64,000 nt of DNA from Halobacillus kuroshimensis DSM 18393. Lineage in GTDB: Bacteria; Bacillota; Bacilli; Bacillales; Halobacillaceae. Shown one piece after another: positions 24,707-33,292 of the stretch. Where the stretch lies: positions 124,001-188,000 of the forward strand of contig NZ_AUDY01000012.1 of assembly GCF_000425705.1 (NCBI RefSeq). The letters run 5' to 3'. The position numbers and the translations under genes are program-made. The notes beneath the pieces are model-generated. The model was given only the letters and a program-made list of their open reading frames with translations, was not told the DNA's origin and made no database searches. Every line of letters begins with the position of its first letter. Positions within the stretch are counted from its first letter, which is position 1.

Positions 24707-24845
24707 ATGCGTTTCCCCCTTATATTCAATGAATAATGAAATGGTATGTGGAGAAGATCTTCCTTACATATTCATCATAGCACTAGTAACGAAGGAAACT
24801 TTGTGAAATATTGAACAAAGTATGAACGTTGAGGAGAACCAATCA

Positions 24846-24885
24846 GAAACGCCCTGCTTCCGTGTAAAAGCAGGGCGTTTCTTTT
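24846..24885. terminator. Hairpin after the LacI-SBP fusion gene
   Basis: GAAACGCCCTGC/GCAGGGCGTTTC is a perfect 12-base-pair stem with a 12-base loop. The T-run is better on the plus side (CTTTTCTT), but the gene that ends here is on the minus strand. Confidence 0.65.
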
Positions 24886-24891
24886 CTTCAG

Positions 24892-27066
24892 TTATGATCG
24901 GACAAAAGTATCCGCATAGTTTTCGAGCTTGGCGTTGATTTCCGCAATGATGTCGGAAACCGCGTGTTTTTGACTGAGGGAACGCTGCAGGGACGTCCCG
25001 ATAATTTCTTCGACCGCTTTCGTATTGAAATAGGAGCCGTCTTTGAACTGCTTCTCCCGGATCCCTTTGAACTTCGTATCATACGAATTGGACAGCCACG
25101 GGTACAGTGAGTGAATGGTCTGGTTGTCGCACACTTCAAGCTTTGCTGTCGTACCTCCGAGCATCGTGATCTGTTCGGCGACGGAATCTTCATGGATCCA
25201 TTTCAAAAAGGTGAGAGCCGCGTCGGTTTTTCTACTCTGCTTGGAAAGACCGATAACACCGCCGCCTAAAATCGGAGAGCCTCCTGGCGGGAGGGCGGAA
25301 CCGACCAGCGGACCGACTTCACTCAGGGAAATTTTCGAAGCATGGTTGATAAATCCTATGATCATCGCCATCTCGCCGCGGGCGAAACTGCTTACCTCCT
25401 CGGTCCACCACTGGTTCAGGAACGGCTTAGCCATTTTCACCGTTTCCAAGTAGTTCTCCAGCGCCGCTTCTGCTTTAGCTGGATCGAGCATCAAATGATT
25501 CTCCTGGACGAGGCGTCCGCCTCGCTCGTAATAGCGGGCGAGGAAATCGAGCGCCATGATTGAAGGCTTGCCTAAGATCATCCCTGTCCCGTATTCGATC
25601 GGTGAATCGCTGTAAGCTGCGCGAGAGAAGAAATGGACGATCTCATTCATCGACTCGAAGTCTTCCGGAATCGTCAGCTGTTTTTTATACGTTTCATAAA
25701 ACATCCGCTTGATTTTCGGGTCCTCAAATAAATCCTTCCGGTAAAAGAGCATCTGCAGGCTTGGATCAAAAGGAAGGACGAGCGCCTGGCCGTTCACTTC
25801 TGAATAGTTGCGCTTCAAATACTTGGGCAGTGACGCGAGTCTGTCGTCGATTTCTCCATCCAGCCCTTGAAGGGGGGTGAACAGTTCTTCCCCGAGCCAA
25901 GGAAGCCAGGCCATATCGAGACGGATCAAGTCATGATCCCTCTCCTGCGATTTGGACATTAACTCCTCGTACATCTGGTCGAACGACTGGATATCCACCT
26001 CGACATGGATCCCGGTCTGCTTCTGGAAATGGGGCAGGATCTTCTGCAGAGCATCTGTAGTCGGACTGGGCAGGGTCAGCAGCTTGATCGTATCGGAATC
26101 GTTTTTAGATGCCGTAACCTCCGTATCTACAAACCCTTTATTTGAAAGAATTACGTGAGGCTCCATCGTCTTCACATCATGGACATGATCCAGCAGCCAG
26201 CCGGCCGTCTTTTTTCCGAGAAGCTGATAGTTTTGGAGATAAGAAACTGTATCCGCCCCCGCTCCACGTGTGGACGGGTCCAGGGTAATCAGTGCGGGCA
26301 TAGGATGTAGTGACCCGAACGTGTGCGCCTTCCGTAAGTGATCGGCAAAGTTCGGGCTGCTTGTTACGAGAACATCGAAGGACTGGTCCTTGAAAAAGGA
26401 AAACGCCGCGCTATGCGCCTGCTGCAACGTTGTCCGTTCAATACGGGTCGGAAGAAAACTGAGGTCTCTCGCCAGCACGTCTGTAAAGCTGCGCTCATTG
26501 GAGTGTTTTTCCTCCCCTGTAAACAGACCGACGGACTCAAAGCCCTGATCTAAAATGTAGGCGGCGATATCTCTGCCCGCCTCGGTGAAGTCAAACGATA
26601 CAGACGCCCGGCTGTTCCGGACCTGGCGGTTGATGAACACGACGTGATCTTCCGGAATGTGCAGTTTTTCATAATAGGTACGGGCATCATCAAGGCAGGA
26701 AACGGCCAGAACCCCTGTCGCCCGTTCGGCGGCGATTTCCTCAAGAATCTTTTCCTCATAGTGGGGGAGGTCATAGGTGATATACAGGTGGACGGAGTAG
26801 CCCTGTTCACGTAAGGCTTTTTTTACGCCTTCATAAAATTGGACATACTCCGTCTGCTCGAGGCTCGGCAGGATAAGGGAAACGGCATGGTTCGTCCCTG
26901 AGCGCAGCGTATGGGCTTTCCGGTTCAGGTTATAACCGAGGGCGCGGGCCGCCTCTTCCACCATCTTGATTTTTTTTACACTCACATTGCCTCTTTTGTT
27001 CAATACGTTTGAAACCGTCCCGTGTGAAACGCCGGCTTTTCTAGCGATATCTTTAATTGTTGTCAC
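24892..27066 (-). CDS. LacI-type repressor fused to an ABC solute-binding-protein domain
   Basis: This 724-residue protein is about twice the length of a LacI regulator. Residues 1-60 are a LacI HTH with hinge (TTIKDIARKAGVSHGTVSNV). Residues about 62-320 form the LacI-type sensor (AVSLILPS, GVLAVS, VGLFTGEE). Residues about 325-724 look like a family-1 extracellular solute-binding protein (TDALQKILPHFQKQTGIHVE, LPFDPSLQMLFYRKDLFEDP, GGGVIGLSKQSRKTDAALTF). It has no signal peptide, so the binding-protein domain must act in the cytosol as a second sensor. It starts at GTG 27066 behind GGAGG and is divergent from the GDPD gene, whose promoter carries the proposed operator. Confidence 0.85.
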   Translation of the reverse strand: MTTIKDIARKAGVSHGTVSNVLNKRGNVSVKKIKMVEEAARALGYNLNRKAHTLRSGTNHAVSLILPSLEQTEYVQFYEGVKKALREQGYSVHLYITYDLPHYEEKILEEIAAERATGVLAVSCLDDARTYYEKLHIPEDHVVFINRQVRNSRASVSFDFTEAGRDIAAYILDQGFESVGLFTGEEKHSNERSFTDVLARDLSFLPTRIERTTLQQAHSAAFSFFKDQSFDVLVTSSPNFADHLRKAHTFGSLHPMPALITLDPSTRGAGADTVSYLQNYQLLGKKTAGWLLDHVHDVKTMEPHVILSNKGFVDTEVTASKNDSDTIKLLTLPSPTTDALQKILPHFQKQTGIHVEVDIQSFDQMYEELMSKSQERDHDLIRLDMAWLPWLGEELFTPLQGLDGEIDDRLASLPKYLKRNYSEVNGQALVLPFDPSLQMLFYRKDLFEDPKIKRMFYETYKKQLTIPEDFESMNEIVHFFSRAAYSDSPIEYGTGMILGKPSIMALDFLARYYERGGRLVQENHLMLDPAKAEAALENYLETVKMAKPFLNQWWTEEVSSFARGEMAMIIGFINHASKISLSEVGPLVGSALPPGGSPILGGGVIGLSKQSRKTDAALTFLKWIHEDSVAEQITMLGGTTAKLEVCDNQTIHSLYPWLSNSYDTKFKGIREKQFKDGSYFNTKAVEEIIGTSLQRSLSQKHAVSDIIAEINAKLENYADTFVRS

Positions 27067-27134
27067 TCTTACAAACCTCCATTACTGCGGTGTATCCGTA
27101 TGTATCTTTTTCTAATATAACATGGGATTTCAGT

Positions 27135-27164
27135 ATTGACACGTTCCAATATCATGTATATATT
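27135..27164 (+). promoter_or_regulatory. Promoter and operator of the GDPD gene
   Basis: TTGACA (27136-27141), 17 bases, then TATATT (27159-27164) form a sigma-A promoter. The dyad ATTGACACGTTCCAAT (27135-27150; pattern ATTGNNACGTNNCAAT) overlaps the -35. The same operator recurs at 28185-28200, so it probably binds the LacI-SBP fusion protein. Confidence 0.75.
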
Positions 27165-27202
27165 TATCCGTGAAAATAGTAAGACGATGGAGGAGGGGTT
27201 TT

Positions 27203-28060
27203 GTGGCAGGAAAAAAGGAGTATCAGCACATCAACGGGCTGCTGAGCCGGAAGCTGGAGGAAAAGCAGGTGCTTACAGCGGTACATAGAGGGCTGCCTGG
27301 AGGAAACATCATTGAGAATACGATTCCGGCCTTTCAGGCTGCGCTCCGTCTGCGGAGTGACGCGTTGGAAATCGACGTCTCCAGGACAGCTGATGGGGAT
27401 TTTTATCTTTTCCATGATGGTGAGGAAAAGCGTCTTTTCGGCGTGGATCAGAATATAAGAGAGATGACGACGGAGGCGGTGGCCGCCATGACGTATTACA
27501 ACAGCCTTTCGCTGCCTGTGAGCTATCGGGTCGAGAGTCTGGATGACGGCCTGCGCTTTCTGAAAGGGGATACGCTCCTGAACATCGACCGCTCCTGGCA
27601 GGACTGGGCAGAGCTTCTGCCGCTGCTGGATGGCTATGACATGATGGATCAGCTCATTTTGAAGAGTCCTGTCCACCGCGATTATCTCGGGCAGCTGCAG
27701 AACCATGAGCGGAAATACATGTACATGCCGATTGTTCAGACGGTGGAAGAGCTGGAGGTGGTCATGAGCAGTCCCGGCATCAATCTTGTCGGCATCGAGC
27801 TGATTGCAGATTCTGAGGACCACCCGCTGTTTGACGATGCTGTCATCCGCCGGGTGCATGACGCCGGCTTGTTCGTCTGGGCGAATGCCATTACCCTCGA
27901 TGATGAAAAAATATTGTATGCTGGTCTGGATGACAACACGTCATTGATCCACGGCCCTGAGCACGGCTGGGGCAGACTGATCGATAAGGGTGTCGACATG
28001 ATTCAAACCGACTGGCCGTCTCTTCTCGTTCCGTACATCGATGGAAAATTGAATCGATAA
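27203..28060 (+). CDS. Glycerophosphodiester phosphodiesterase
   Basis: From GTG 27203 (six bases after GGAGGAGG) the product is 285 residues with a GDPD TIM barrel: HRG (28-30), Glu39-Asn40, Glu57 and Asp59 as metal ligands, and His71-Asp72. It hydrolyses glycerophosphodiesters to glycerol-3-phosphate and an alcohol. No signal peptide is present, so it acts in the cytosol on imported substrate. It is followed by a terminator but shares an operator with the downstream ABC importer operon, which suggests a joint uptake-and-hydrolysis pathway. Confidence 0.88.
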   Translation: MAGKKEYQHINGLLSRKLEEKQVLTAVHRGLPGGNIIENTIPAFQAALRLRSDALEIDVSRTADGDFYLFHDGEEKRLFGVDQNIREMTTEAVAAMTYYNSLSLPVSYRVESLDDGLRFLKGDTLLNIDRSWQDWAELLPLLDGYDMMDQLILKSPVHRDYLGQLQNHERKYMYMPIVQTVEELEVVMSSPGINLVGIELIADSEDHPLFDDAVIRRVHDAGLFVWANAITLDDEKILYAGLDDNTSLIHGPEHGWGRLIDKGVDMIQTDWPSLLVPYIDGKLNR

Positions 28061-28071
28061 ACCATACCAGG

Positions 28072-28104
28072 CACCCGCTGCATTTTTTGCAGCGGGTGTT
28101 TTTT
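28072..28104 (+). terminator. Terminator of the GDPD gene
   Basis: A perfect 11-base-pair stem (CACCCGCTGCA/TGCAGCGGGTG), a five-base loop and six T. Confidence 0.92.
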
Positions 28105-28151
28105 GTTTGTAAATGGATTGCTAAGAGTATGTAAAGAAGTTGTTTTTGGTA

Positions 28152-28200
28152 TTTACCGCAGGGGTTTTTGGTTCTAGAATCAAAATTGACACGTTCCAAA
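28152..28200 (+). promoter_or_regulatory. Promoter and operator of the ABC importer operon
   Basis: A weak TTTACC (28152-28157), 17 bases and TAGAAT (28175-28180) precede ATTGACACGTTCCAAA (28185-28200). That is the same operator as at 27135 with one end mismatch, here placed at the transcription start where binding would block initiation. Confidence 0.65.
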
Positions 28201-28270
28201 AACGAGAGGAAGGACGAAAACAAGGAAGGACCGCTTTTATTTCATATGGATACTTAAGGAGATGGATGAG

Positions 28271-29326
28271 ATGAAATTAAAGAACATGATGTTGACGACA
28301 GGCTTGGCTTTGACGACGCTTCTTGCGGAGTGTGGAGGAACAGAGGAATCGGCAGCGGAAGGGGAGTCGGCGAAGGAGCCGCTGGTGGTCTATACGAACT
28401 CCGCTTCTGACGGGCGTGGCGACTGGCTGAAGGAACAGGCGTCTGAACAGGGCTTTGATATTGAAATCGTTGAGGGTGGCGGCGGAGATATCGCCAATCG
28501 TCTTGTCGCAGAAAAGAACAACCCGGTCGCCGACGTCGTTTACGGCTTGTCCACGATGGACTATGAAAATTTCAAAAAGCAGGACATGCTTGCTGAGTAC
28601 GTTCCATCCTGGGCAGGAGAGATCCAGGGTGACATCAATGACCCGGAAGGCTACTATCATTCCATCGTCAAACAGGCGATTCTTATGATTTACAATACGG
28701 AGAACTATGACGCTTCCTCTGCGCCGGCAGACTGGCCGGAGCTTTGGAACAACGAGGAGTACCACGGACAGTATGCCATCCTGGGTCATGAAGGTGGAAC
28801 CGGCCGGGCGATCATCGCTGGCATCTTGAACCGCTATAAGGATGAGAACGGCGAGTACGGGATTTCCCAGGAAGGCTGGGACGAGCTTGAAAAATACTTA
28901 ACGAACGGCTACCACCCGGCAGAAGGGGAAGACTTTTTCGCGAAGGTCGCTGATGGAAGTGTACCGATTTCAGGCATCTGGTCGAGCGGCATCGTGCCGA
29001 AAGAGGAAGAGTTCGGTGTGGATGTAGCGTATGCCACGCCGGAAGTGGGCGTTCCACACGTCGTTGAGCAGGTGGCCATTGTAGAAGGTACAGAACAGCA
29101 GGACACGGCGGAAGCGTTCGTCGATTGGTTCGGCAGCAGTGAAGTCCAAGGAAAGTGGACGGAGGAATTCTCCACCCTGCCGGCGAATGAAGGAGCCTTG
29201 GAATATGCAGATGAAGCGACGAAGGAGCTTGCTGAGTCCGTGACTGTTCAGGATATTGACTGGGGATTCGTTTCAGAAAACATAGATCAATGGGTCGAAA
29301 AGGTTGAACTGCAGCTGCTTCCTTAA
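28271..29326 (+). CDS. ABC importer solute-binding protein (Fe3+/2-AEP/polyamine class)
   Basis: From ATG 28271 (nine bases after AAGGAG) this is a 351-residue family-1 binding protein with PLVVYTNSASDGR, ADVVYGLS and an acidic surface. The expected lipobox reads LLAEC: Cys21 is present, but glutamate occupies the -1 position where Gly or Ala is normal. Processing may be poor, or signal peptidase II may tolerate it here. Co-regulation with GDPD suggests glycerophosphodiesters or a related phosphorylated alcohol as ligand (inference). Phosphonate or iron compounds are alternatives. Confidence 0.8.
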   Translation: MKLKNMMLTTGLALTTLLAECGGTEESAAEGESAKEPLVVYTNSASDGRGDWLKEQASEQGFDIEIVEGGGGDIANRLVAEKNNPVADVVYGLSTMDYENFKKQDMLAEYVPSWAGEIQGDINDPEGYYHSIVKQAILMIYNTENYDASSAPADWPELWNNEEYHGQYAILGHEGGTGRAIIAGILNRYKDENGEYGISQEGWDELEKYLTNGYHPAEGEDFFAKVADGSVPISGIWSSGIVPKEEEFGVDVAYATPEVGVPHVVEQVAIVEGTEQQDTAEAFVDWFGSSEVQGKWTEEFSTLPANEGALEYADEATKELAESVTVQDIDWGFVSENIDQWVEKVELQLLP

Positions 29327-29413
29327 GAAGGAATAGCATGGGGGACAGTCCAATACTTGGGCTGTTCCTCTTTCCATGAGTGAGGGAATTTTATAGAGAG
29401 AGGATAAGCGATT

Positions 29414-30463
29414 GTGATTGAATTCAAAAATGTGCAGATCAACTATGGAGATTTCGTAGCAGTAAAGAATTTGAACCTGAACGTGCGCGAAAGGGAATTT
29501 TTCACCCTTCTCGGTCCGTCCGGGTGCGGGAAAACGACGACGCTGCGCAGTCTCGTCGGCTTTGTCCATCCGTCACAAGGCGAGATTTTCCTGAACGGCG
29601 AGAACATTACATCGCTGCCTGTAGAAAAACGGGAAGTCAGCATGGTCTTCCAAAGCTATGCCTTGTTTCCGACGCTTGATGTCTATGAAAATATCGCCTT
29701 TGGCTTGAAGGTGAAGAAAGTGCCGAAGCAGGAGATCGATCGGGAGGTCCGCGATATGGCGGCCAAGGTCGACCTCAGTGAAGAACAGCTGAAAAAGAAG
29801 GTGTCCGAGCTATCCGGTGGGCAGCAGCAGCGGGTGGCGATTGCGAGAGCGCTCGTCCTTAAGCCCCGTATCCTCGTGCTGGATGAACCCTTGTCCAACC
29901 TCGACGCCCGCCTGCGTGTCCAGTTGAGGAGAGAGTTGAAAAATCTGCAGAAACAGTTCGGGATCACCGCCATTTATGTGACGCATGATCAGGAGGAGGC
30001 GCTCACGCTTTCGGACCGGATTGCCGTTTTCAATAAGGGTGTCGTAGAGCAGGTCGGAACACCCAAGGAAATTTACAGCCACTCCGAAACCGAGTTCGTC
30101 TGCAATTTCATCGGCGACATCAACCGCCTGGAGACTCCTGTCGTCAAAGAGCTGAATGAGCAGATGGGCGGCGGTTATCTGGAACATGACCGTCACTATG
30201 TCCGGATGGAACGGGTTCATACCCGTCAGTGGCAGGGCGGAAAGGAAGCGTCTGTCCTCAAACTGACAGGCCGGGTGGAGGATGCGGAATTCTACGGCGT
30301 GTATACGAAATACTCGTTTCTCGTTAACGGCACCGTTATAAAGAATATTGAGAGGGAAGATGGAAGAGCCCCTCACAACATTGGGGACGAAGTGGATATT
30401 TATATCGATATCCATGATGTGATGACTTATCGGGAGAGACACAGCTATGCAGTGGATCAATAA
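29414..30463 (+). CDS. ABC importer ATPase (FbpC/PotA type)
   Basis: A 349-residue importer ATPase with Walker A GPSGCGKT, Q-loop VFQSYALF, signature LSGGQQQR, Walker B ILVLDEPLSN and H-loop VTHDQEE. A C-terminal TOBE-like domain (residues about 240-349) is typical of the Fe3+/polyamine/2-AEP group. It starts at GTG 29414 and overlaps the permease gene by 17 bases. Confidence 0.92.
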   Translation: MIEFKNVQINYGDFVAVKNLNLNVREREFFTLLGPSGCGKTTTLRSLVGFVHPSQGEIFLNGENITSLPVEKREVSMVFQSYALFPTLDVYENIAFGLKVKKVPKQEIDREVRDMAAKVDLSEEQLKKKVSELSGGQQQRVAIARALVLKPRILVLDEPLSNLDARLRVQLRRELKNLQKQFGITAIYVTHDQEEALTLSDRIAVFNKGVVEQVGTPKEIYSHSETEFVCNFIGDINRLETPVVKELNEQMGGGYLEHDRHYVRMERVHTRQWQGGKEASVLKLTGRVEDAEFYGVYTKYSFLVNGTVIKNIEREDGRAPHNIGDEVDIYIDIHDVMTYRERHSYAVDQ

Positions 30464-32153
30464 ATGGAAGGGGGCGGCTTCAACCAAACTCGCCGGCCTG
30501 CTCATCGCTTTGTTCTTTGCGTGGTTCATCGTCTCTTTTCTGATCTATCCGAATGTGAACCTGTTGAAAACGACCTTCATCATTGACGGATCGCTGTCTC
30601 TGGAGGCGGTCAATAAGCTGGTGAGCTCCAGCCGGGCCGTGCAGAGTCTGATCAACAGCTTCCTGCTGGCGGTTTCGCTTGTCATGACGGTGAACATCGT
30701 CGGGATTTTCCTCGTCCTTGTGATGAATTACTTTGATATCAAAGGCATCCGGGTGCTTTCGCTCGGATACTACACGACGCTCATCTACAGTGGTGTGGTG
30801 CTTGTGGCCGGCTATAAATTCCTTTACGGGGAGCAGGGATTTTTGACCAACCTGCTGGCGGGAATCTTCCCGGGCTTTGATACAGGGTGGTTTACGGGGT
30901 ATGGGGCGGTTCTTTTCGTCATGACGTTCGCGATCACCTCCAACCACGTCATTTTCCTGTCGAACGCGATCAAAAAGGTGGATTATCAGACGATTGAAGC
31001 AGCAAAAAGCATGGGAGCCTCCGATTTTTATATTATCCGGAGAGTGGTGCTTCCTGCCTTAAAACCGACAATATTTGCCGTGACCATCCTCATCTTTCTG
31101 ATTGGATTGAGTGCGACGTCCGCTCCATTGATTGTCGGCGGACAGGAGTTTCAGACGATCAACCCGATGATCCTGACCTTTGCCAAAAGCGTCACCTCCC
31201 GGGATATCGCGGCCATCCTCTCCATTGTTCTTGGTATTGCGACGATGGTGCTGCTTATGTTCATGCAGCGGATGGAGAACAACGGCAATTTCATTTCCGT
31301 ATCGAAGGTGAAGTCGACAATCAAAAAGCAGAAGATCGAAAACAAATGGGCCAATGCGCTTGTTCATATCGCTGCCTATCTGTTATTCGTCATTTATGCG
31401 CTGCCTGTTGTGCTGATCATCATTTTTTCCTTTACCGATACGTTCAGCATCGAAAATGCGACACTGGCTCTCGACCATTTCACCTTGGACAATTATCTGC
31501 TGCTGTTTACGGACTTTTCCGCTTTCCGCCCGTACTTCATCAGTATCGCGTATTCGGCGGCGTCCGCTTTCATCGTGGTGATGATCACACTGCTCGTTTC
31601 CCGGATTCTGCAGCGGCATAAGAACATCTACACCCAGCTGTTGGAATATTCGATGATGATTCCCTGGCTGCTGCCATCAACATTGATTGCGCTCGGTCTG
31701 ATTCTTACGTATGATAAACCGAACAGCCTGCTCGGAAACCAGGTGCTGACCGGATCGGTATGGATGCTGCTGGTCGCTTATATCATCGTCCAGCTTCCGT
31801 TCACTCTGCGCATGCTGAAGGCGGCGTTCTTCACCATCGATCATTCCCTTGAAGAAGCAGCAAAAAATTTAGGAGCTTCTTCTATGTATACGTTCCGTAG
31901 AATCCTGCTTCCCGTCATCCTTCCGTCCACGCTTGCGGTTATGGTGTTGAACTTCAACAACATGCTGGCAGATTATGATTTGACGGTATTCCTGTTCCAG
32001 CCGCTGCTTGAACCTTTAGGCATCGTCATCAAAAGTAGTACCGATCCGCAGGCGTCCACGGATGCAAAGGCGCTTATGCTCGTCTATTCGGTCGTATTGA
32101 TGGTGATTTCATCCGTGGCGCTGTACTTTGTGTACGGCAGGAAATCCAAGTAG
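30447..32153 (+). CDS. Double-length ABC importer permease
   Basis: A 568-residue protein with two complete permease modules of about six helices each. EAA loops occur in both halves (IEAAKSMGASDFY and LEEAAKNLGASSMY), as in FbpB-type transporters. It would form the entire membrane channel as a single chain with the preceding ATPase and the lipoprotein. Confidence 0.9.
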   Translation: MQWINKWKGAASTKLAGLLIALFFAWFIVSFLIYPNVNLLKTTFIIDGSLSLEAVNKLVSSSRAVQSLINSFLLAVSLVMTVNIVGIFLVLVMNYFDIKGIRVLSLGYYTTLIYSGVVLVAGYKFLYGEQGFLTNLLAGIFPGFDTGWFTGYGAVLFVMTFAITSNHVIFLSNAIKKVDYQTIEAAKSMGASDFYIIRRVVLPALKPTIFAVTILIFLIGLSATSAPLIVGGQEFQTINPMILTFAKSVTSRDIAAILSIVLGIATMVLLMFMQRMENNGNFISVSKVKSTIKKQKIENKWANALVHIAAYLLFVIYALPVVLIIIFSFTDTFSIENATLALDHFTLDNYLLLFTDFSAFRPYFISIAYSAASAFIVVMITLLVSRILQRHKNIYTQLLEYSMMIPWLLPSTLIALGLILTYDKPNSLLGNQVLTGSVWMLLVAYIIVQLPFTLRMLKAAFFTIDHSLEEAAKNLGASSMYTFRRILLPVILPSTLAVMVLNFNNMLADYDLTVFLFQPLLEPLGIVIKSSTDPQASTDAKALMLVYSVVLMVISSVALYFVYGRKSK

Positions 32154-32171
32154 TAGAAGGAGAGTGGCCAC

Positions 32172-32996
32172 ATGGAGATGGTAGAAGCACTGACCCTGTC
32201 CAAAACAGGGAGGGAAGAAAACAATGAAGACGCTTATATGGTGACGGATGACTTTGCCGCCGTCATAGATGGGATGACGCCAAAAGAAAAGGATTTATAC
32301 GGGGGCGTCTCTCCGGCAAGAATCGCTGTGAAGCAGATCGTGGAGACCATCCGGCATTTTCAGGCGGACGTTTCCATGGAAGAAGCGGCAGAGCAATTAG
32401 AAGCTGCTTTGAACGCCTATTACGTTGAGCACCAGCTTGTTGAAGAAGTCACAGTCCATCCTCACAAACGGATGGGAGCGAACCTGATTCTTTATTCAAA
32501 GCATCACATGGAAGTATGGATGATCGGTGACTGTCAGTGTATGCTGGACGGCCGGGTGGAGACGAATGAAAAACTGGTGGACCAGCTCCTTGCTGACATG
32601 CGCGTCCAGCTTCTGGACCGCTATCTCCAATCTTATTCAGTCGAGGACCTTGTGGAGCGCGACCTCAGCGCCCGTGATCTTGCACCGTTTCAAAAACAGC
32701 AGTACCTCTATCAAAACCTGCCGTCGGAATCACCGCTCGCTTACACGGTTGCCGACGGCTTTCCGATGAACAAAAGCGACATCAAAATTGTTCCGGCGGA
32801 GGGGGTGGAGGAGTTGGTTCTGGCCAGTGACGGATATCCTTCATTACTTCCAACCCTTGAAAAAACAGAACAACGACTGGCGGAGACTCTTGAGGAAGAT
32901 CCGTTGTGCCATCGGGTTTTCCAATCCACCAAAGGGGTGCAGTCCCCACATATCTCCTACGATGACCGGACGTACGTAAGGATGAAGCTGTCATGA
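32172..32996 (+). CDS. PP2C-like phosphatase in the ABC importer operon
   Basis: A 274-residue protein with PP2C-fold landmarks: NNEDAYMV near the N-terminus, FAAVIDGM as the metal-binding DG strand, VWMIGDCQCML, LVLASDGYPSLL and a C-terminal YDDRTYV. It starts 18 bases after the permease behind AAGGAGAG. PP2C proteins use two metals to hydrolyse phosphoserine/threonine or small phosphate esters. Here it could dephosphorylate a transported metabolite or modulate the system. The fold is likely, the substrate unknown. Confidence 0.72.
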   Translation: MEMVEALTLSKTGREENNEDAYMVTDDFAAVIDGMTPKEKDLYGGVSPARIAVKQIVETIRHFQADVSMEEAAEQLEAALNAYYVEHQLVEEVTVHPHKRMGANLILYSKHHMEVWMIGDCQCMLDGRVETNEKLVDQLLADMRVQLLDRYLQSYSVEDLVERDLSARDLAPFQKQQYLYQNLPSESPLAYTVADGFPMNKSDIKIVPAEGVEELVLASDGYPSLLPTLEKTEQRLAETLEEDPLCHRVFQSTKGVQSPHISYDDRTYVRMKLS

Positions 32997-32998
32997 CA

Positions 32999-33039
32999 AG
33001 AGCACCTGTGTCGATCGGCACAGGTGCTCTTCTTTTTTT
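32999..33039 (+). terminator. Terminator of the ABC importer operon
   Basis: A perfect 12-base-pair stem (AGAGCACCTGTG/CACAGGTGCTCT), an eight-base loop and TCTTTTTTT. Confidence 0.93.
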
Positions 33040-33292
33040 ATGAAGGAATGACGTTCCGCTTCTTTTTTCTAAAGGAAAAGAAAAAGGATAGGAGGATATA
33101 CAAAACAACTCCAAGAAGAAAGGAAAGGCTGATTCCCGTCGCTGTTGCTGTTGCATACATTTCATGTTCATTTACTTCAATGAACCAAAGATTTCCGCCC
33201 ATCCATTCAGGATCGGACAGGACATTTCGCCTCCCGGTCAGATGGAGGATGAAAGGGGACAGGAGGGTAAGAATGATATAAAGAATGGCCAT
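33038..33292 (-). CDS. Small two-helix membrane protein
   Basis: From ATG 33292 (GGAGGTGGG six bases upstream) the protein has 84 residues with a helix at each end, a tryptophan-containing outside loop and a lysine/arginine-rich C-terminus. ATG 33328 is an alternative with AAGGAG ten bases upstream, adding 12 residues. It follows a second small membrane-protein gene on the same strand. No family is recognised. Confidence 0.6.
   Translation of the reverse strand: MAILYIILTLLSPFILHLTGRRNVLSDPEWMGGNLWFIEVNEHEMYATATATGISLSFLLGVVLYILLSFFFSFRKKKRNVIPS

Follow-up and report, generated by a model that had tools for sequence, protein, structure and literature searches.

A LacI-type regulator fused to a solute-binding half

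We analysed 64,000 nucleotides from Halobacillus kuroshimensis DSM 18393 (the window, by which we mean this whole stretch). At 24892–27066 on the reverse strand, a single open reading frame encodes a fusion regulator of 724 amino acids. It consists of a LacI helix-turn-helix (HTH) with hinge helix (residues 1–57; 26896–27066), a type I periplasmic-binding (LacI effector) core (residues 58–318; 26113–26895) and a complete CUT1-type, or type II, solute-binding-protein (SBP) half (residues 326–724; 24895–26091), all on the reverse strand. PF00356 (LacI HTH) matches the window protein at 1e-13 and is also found in all 59 core members of the family; the recognition helix is SHGTVSNV. Leu54 of the hinge, the leucine that enters the minor groove in LacI-family proteins, is invariant in the 59-member core alignment. 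A LacI/type I profile covers about residues 2–319, with CcpA chains as the top solved relatives, and Peripla_BP_3 is recognised in just two of the 59 core members. Since our structural comparison list covers the SBP half alone, the fold of the LacI core is assigned from the sequence profile and the topology of the AlphaFold model. The model (mean pLDDT 91.6) contains the hinge helix at 49–55, the core at 61–307 and a complete two-lobed SBP fold. Sequence and fold alike identify the C-terminal half as SBP_bac_1/8; SBP_bac_5 was not among the Pfam matches of the window protein at an E-value of 0.01.

The 724 residues start with the HTH, and neither a signal peptide nor a membrane segment was found in them. 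Hence, the regulator half resembles an SBP in its working but is no transport SBP, and the protein carries neither the export signal nor the lipid anchor of CUT1 transport subunits. A preliminary description of this DNA had proposed a LacI regulator with a cytosolic SBP domain that lacks a signal peptide; the single frame, the Pfam matches and the model bear this out, including the binding-protein fold of the C-terminal half. The HTH is the most conserved part (0.64), followed by the SBP half (0.45) and the LacI core (0.36). Judged by HTH, hinge, core and type of predicted operator, the fusion regulator belongs to the LacI/GalR family.

One could argue that sequencing or assembly has joined two genes. 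We found no supporting point for this, and 74 homologues besides the window protein align over both halves, which rules such a fusion out. The E. coli form alone is present at 80% of its length or more in 46 of 5426 E. coli genomes, so that we regard the chance of an artefact as negligible. Full-length LacI-SBP homologues are present in Bacillota, Spirochaetota and Gammaproteobacteria, E. coli plasmids among them.

The fusion gene lies in a module of 8231 bp (24831–33061) that was delimited by comparison with a sister species: a genome of the same genus (G014) has 81 bp in its place, between flanks that match at 94.6% and 96.0%. A terminator-like hairpin follows the fusion gene (24845–24882, reverse). 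Divergent from it, and on the forward strand like all remaining genes and hairpins, lies a GDPD-DUF4996 phosphodiesterase gene (27170–28060), identified by Pfam, structure search and an HR..EN..ExD..HD motif, with no signal peptide seen in its product and a second hairpin at its 3' end (28069–28101). Pfam and sequence searches assign the next genes to an importer: a PhnT/Fe-type SBP (SBP_bac_8/6) that carries an imperfect lipobox, LAEC, close to the N-terminus (28262–29326), a PhnT2/PotA-like ABC ATPase (29414–30463) and a double-domain permease of PhnU/PhnV/PhnU2-like type (30447–32153). The final gene of the importer operon encodes a PP2C-like phosphatase by Pfam (32172–32996), for which no relative was found at an E-value of 1e-3 among the other 82 loci that we compared. 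A last hairpin (32998–33031) closes the module, so that terminator-like hairpins stand at both ends. The module travels as a unit. We infer that it was gained rather than lost, because the fusion is absent from all 60 close relatives (at an E-value of 1e-20).

Predicted operators and promoters

From palindromes common to the upstream regions of fusion and transport genes we derived a predicted operator, TTGRNACGTNYCAA, a palindrome with a central CG. The 83 loci compared (1.50 Mb) include the best 80 of at least 435 relatives from a scan of species genomes. They hold 58 exact sites vs 0.2 expected in shuffled DNA, and 50 of the loci have an exact site near a gene start. Fifty-one sites precede transport or enzyme genes, five precede a fusion gene without a named transport gene and two lie elsewhere. 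The motif also goes with the recognition helix: 42 of the 57 members with an HG or QG pair have an exact site, vs five of the 18 others (Fisher p = 7e-4, uncorrected for kinship).

In the window a motif scan finds two exact operators, both TTGACACGTTCCAA: O1 (27136–27149) over a −35 box in the stretch from which the fusion and GDPD genes diverge, and O2 (28186–28199) ahead of the importer operon. Of the promoter-like sites in the region, the best is TTGACA-17-TATATT for the GDPD gene (27136–27164, forward; 11 of 12 matches), and it begins within O1. The promoter-like site for the fusion gene, GTGTCA-17-TATATT with a TG before the −10 box (27114–27142, reverse; nine of 12), overlaps O1 as well. 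Because of these two overlaps, the placement of O1 would fit repression by covering the −35 box as well as self-control. Five promoter-like sites lie in the region, where shuffles contain 7.4 on average; a weaker one (28152–28180, nine of 12) immediately precedes O2. The preliminary description had the regulator control the neighbouring importer, and the exact operators at 27136 and 28186 indicate that control of the GDPD and importer genes is very probable.

TTGACA is frequent as one half-site across the loci. On that side, 19 of 46 asymmetric sites have a −10 box of at least five of six matches at 16–18 bp, compared to two of 46 on the opposite side and 4% of background positions. This pattern bears on the question whether the protein could instead activate the importer genes. 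O2 precedes the importer gene and has no clear −10 box at the TTGACA spacing, which would speak for an activator; O1, however, covers the −35 box of a promoter-like site with 11 of 12 matches. Together with the 19 asymmetric sites, this makes activation very unlikely in our opinion.

Operator pairs recur at 98–99 bp (six loci: L010, L017, L019, L028, L047 and L048) and at 109 bp (L008, L035 and L059). The two spacings are one helical turn apart and occur across genera and operon types. The statistics are post hoc (P = 0.002 or 0.014, depending on the assumed range; no more than 8e-5 once the helical-turn partner is included). The recurrent spacing hints at DNA looping, which is known for LacI. 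A looping tetramer might need such pairs, and hence the SBP half could chiefly serve oligomerisation, or docking to the transporter, with induction through the LacI core. However, the SBP half is better conserved than the core and forms a complete fold in the model. We therefore think that this role is quite improbable, if less so than activation.

Several observations speak against our operator assignment. No exact operator lies near a gene start in 33 of the 83 loci; 15 of the 57 HG/QG members have none in the available DNA, and five members that lack the pair do have one. Sixty fusion-free relatives hold the pattern zero to seven times per genome vs zero to three times for the reversed pattern. 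Other LacI proteins may thus use similar sites, and the pattern is not unique to the fusion regulator. The motif was derived from and counted in the same loci. G417, the sole new genome met later, has no operator; it belongs to a more distant subgroup and has an SVA recognition helix, with which the absence is in line. As noted, O2 also lacks a good −10 box at the TTGACA spacing.

Two known sites were considered and rejected. The cre site of CcpA follows TG-N4-CG-N4-CA, the sites here TG-N3-CG-N3-CA, so the two are not identical. The operator resembles the Cra/FruR site, but TTGACACGTTCCAA is not known to be a Cra consensus, and the motif occurs in Bacillota.

The whole host genome contains one exact operator beyond the two in the window (G000:C1:387142-387155, L086). 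It lies inside a coding frame whose product start looks secreted, and a LacI-family gene ends about 250 bp away; the site is probably there by chance.

Distribution and gene neighbourhoods of the family

The fusion is rare among close relatives but widespread farther afield. Among 396 other genomes sampled from the order at least one carries it, and among 397 others sampled from the phylum also at least one, a distant member; both counts are lower bounds, with two candidates scored per genome. The scan of species genomes added, among others, Paenibacillus, Bacillus, Erysipelothrix, Klebsiella, Proteus, Budvicia, Gilliamella and Haemophilus, besides Clostridia and Spirochaetes. Plasmids yielded 51 records at an E-value of 1e-15 (48 from Escherichia, two from Proteus and one from Rhizobium), and coverage reached 80% or more in 50 of them; of the 46 places of the E. 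coli form, 44 are on plasmids. Viral contigs contained no relatives, nor did an initial scan of genome contigs with a single protein as query.

The SBP half could have been a recent copy of the importer SBP next to it. BLASTP finds the two unrelated in the window (E = 0.53), and the family profile of the SBP half matches none of the importer SBPs in three clusters (0 of 28 in c3, the class of the window importer SBP, 0 of 5 in c18 and 0 of 6 in c19), which rules such a copy out. In eight other loci, the profile does find one neighbouring SBP each: E-values run from 4e-21 to 1.5e-23 for five proteins of cluster c15 and are 1e-23 and 2e-19 for two unclustered ones, and the c15 protein of L008 reaches just 2e-4. 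A tree of 54 proteins puts all 39 fused halves on one side of a branch (support 99/98), away from importer SBPs, including seven of those neighbours and that of L008. The same tree joins its four Gammaproteobacteria, two Paenibacillus and the window protein in a set of seven (100/100); it carries a warning of long branches that meet. These groupings suggest a single fusion event and later transfer between phyla.

Within five genes of the fusion gene, the 57 core loci contain a PhnT-like ABC importer (24 loci), a CUT1 importer (16) or a major facilitator superfamily (MFS) transporter (10); three loci (L022, L030, L066) could not be placed in the neighbourhood counts. In 41 of the 57 there is also a GDPD or a PhnP/RNase-Z-like metallo-hydrolase within this distance. 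With one representative per cluster compared to solved structures, the first hydrolase cluster resembles PhnP, the second 7fct (with a weaker likeness to Apyc1 and RNase Z), and the window GDPD other GDPDs. Hence, the neighbouring hydrolases are, as far as these comparisons indicate, mostly of phosphodiesterase folds. All 25 metallo-hydrolases retain the metal motif HxHxDH. An MgtC-family membrane protein (cluster c5) lies within five genes in 20 of the 57 loci. In L004 (8849-14175), the E. coli plasmid form is divergent from genes for a PhnP-like hydrolase, a nucleoside-symporter-type MFS protein and MgtC, with an exact operator 73 bp before the hydrolase gene.

A more distant LacI-SBP subgroup has 16 members in the alignment (L058, L063-L066, L069, L071-L073, L075-L080, L082; also L092). 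The HG/QG pair is absent in 12 of the 16, and two of the 16 loci have an exact operator. Rbs-type ABC genes are near in nine of 15 loci and URO-D proteins in eight of 15, and none of the 15 has a GDPD or metallo-hydrolase of the above kind. This subgroup probably has a different ligand.

Ligand sensing and a possible mechanism

The neighbouring hydrolases, the class of the importers and the fold neighbours of the SBP half favour a phosphoester-type ligand. GpxB (PhnT type) and UgpB (CUT1 type) bind glycerol phosphates (PMC12718374). The window importer SBP resembles the PhnT-type class to which GpxB belongs. In five c15 importer SBPs of CUT1 type, the UgpB contacts Tyr65, Ser144, Gly307 and Tyr346 are kept in five of five. 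UgpB with glycerophosphocholine and a dinucleotide-binding SBP are among the fold neighbours of the SBP half, ranked under many sugar binders.

A number of findings weaken this case. The closest structures to the SBP half are sugar-type binders. Only four of the nine glycerol-phosphate contacts of UgpB are kept in the regulator half of the core family (Tyr, the acid as Asp, Ser and Gly), with Phe at the Tyr position in the window protein; the Trp clamp, Ser270, Tyr346 and Arg397 are missing. Sixteen of the 57 core loci have no GDPD or metallo-hydrolase within five genes, and of the 29 members of the GDPD cluster just six, including those of the window and G111, fit a strict catalytic pattern for GDPDs. 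The chances are thus about evenly balanced that the ligand is a phosphodiester or phosphoester, and a sugar is possible; the earlier guess of a phosphodiester-type solute appears sensible.

The preliminary description also suggested two pockets that integrate two signals. The position of LacI R197 (PurR R196) is Phe in 48 of 59 core members and that of D274 (PurR D275) holds mixed residues, where the alignment is uncertain by 1–2 positions; the anchors of a LacI/PurR-type effector site are thus not kept, which speaks against the suggestion. Part of the N-subdomain pocket wall is nevertheless conserved (Y74 in 54, C/S124 in 51 and R147 in 47 of 59, as well as D159), and hence the LacI core may bind a ligand as well. 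Under such a scheme, a phosphate ester or sugar, for instance, could occupy the core and a second ligand the SBP half, and their combination would switch the operon. The core is complete in the model, and by sequence reading that of G417 looks more canonical. It is, however, the least conserved of the three domains and lacks the anchors, and we consider two-signal control unlikely, though the least so of the alternatives.

We find it fairly probable that the protein is a LacI-type repressor of a conserved, horizontally moving family and that an imported phosphodiester-type solute relieves repression by binding to the SBP half. The regulator would bind at 27136-27149 and 28186-28199, covering the −35 box at O1 and the importer promoter region at O2, and would repress the GDPD gene, the PhnT-like importer operon and probably its own gene. 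The predicted regulon comprises GDPD, importer and PP2C-like gene. A small phosphodiester or phosphoester would enter through the importer; the SBP half would bind this solute, or a close product, in the cytosol and close, acting through the LacI core to release the operator. GDPD would then cleave the imported solute. The regulator may thus sense the same solute as the importer, an option that the preliminary description had raised, although in the window the SBP half and the importer SBP are unrelated by sequence.

A bolder proposal is that these proteins form an apparently unnamed, widespread class of repressors, with type I and type II folds on one DNA-binding head and one operator code from Paenibacillus to E. 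coli plasmids, in which an SBP-half tetramer loops the DNA between operators spaced by about 98 or 109 bp. We put it forward tentatively and would sooner expect parts of it to fail. If true, the sensor remains while the transporter is exchanged among three kinds (PhnT-like ABC, CUT1 ABC and MFS).

The fusion regulator shares HTH, hinge helix with Leu, type I core and a palindrome with central CG with LacI/GalR proteins (LacI, PurR, CcpA); unlike them, it adds an SBP half of about 400 residues and lacks the LacI/PurR pocket anchors. It differs from UgpB and other CUT1 SBPs in having no export signal and no Trp clamp, and in being joined to a LacI regulator. Btr of Bacillus subtilis has an SBP-like domain of siderophore type and an AraC-type HTH, which set it apart from our protein. 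Like the fusion regulator it is a regulator of an importer operon, in its case feuABC (PMC6529636). SgrR and DsvR also join an N-terminal HTH to an SBP domain, and SgrR responds to glucose-phosphate stress (PMC13060122). Their C-terminal domain is SBP_bac_5 instead of SBP_bac_1/8, and they have no LacI-type HTH or core. A 2014 census of the LacI family terms its domain structure rigid; the words "fusion", "fused", "solute" and "SBP" do not occur in the accessible part of that text (PMC4052901). The census mentions AraR of B. subtilis, a GntR HTH with a LacI-type effector core, in which, too, the core is recombined with another domain (PMC4052901). In AraR the HTH is exchanged, whereas in the fusion regulator an SBP is added. 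In the literature searched, with subscription journals mostly outside reach, we found no description of a LacI + CUT1 SBP fusion, its operator or its regulon. Transcription factors with cytosolic SBP domains are already known (SgrR); the LacI + CUT1 SBP protein is a new architectural variant of LacI/GalR.

With an operator and a regulon predicted, the function can be tested directly. These predictions point to a phosphodiester-type uptake pathway that may be common to soil, gut and enteric bacteria, and a natural fusion of SBP sensor and LacI switch could be of use for biosensor work. All 10 of the E. coli members among the matches listed (of 46) are annotated as "extracellular solute-binding protein", a label that hides a cytosolic regulator.
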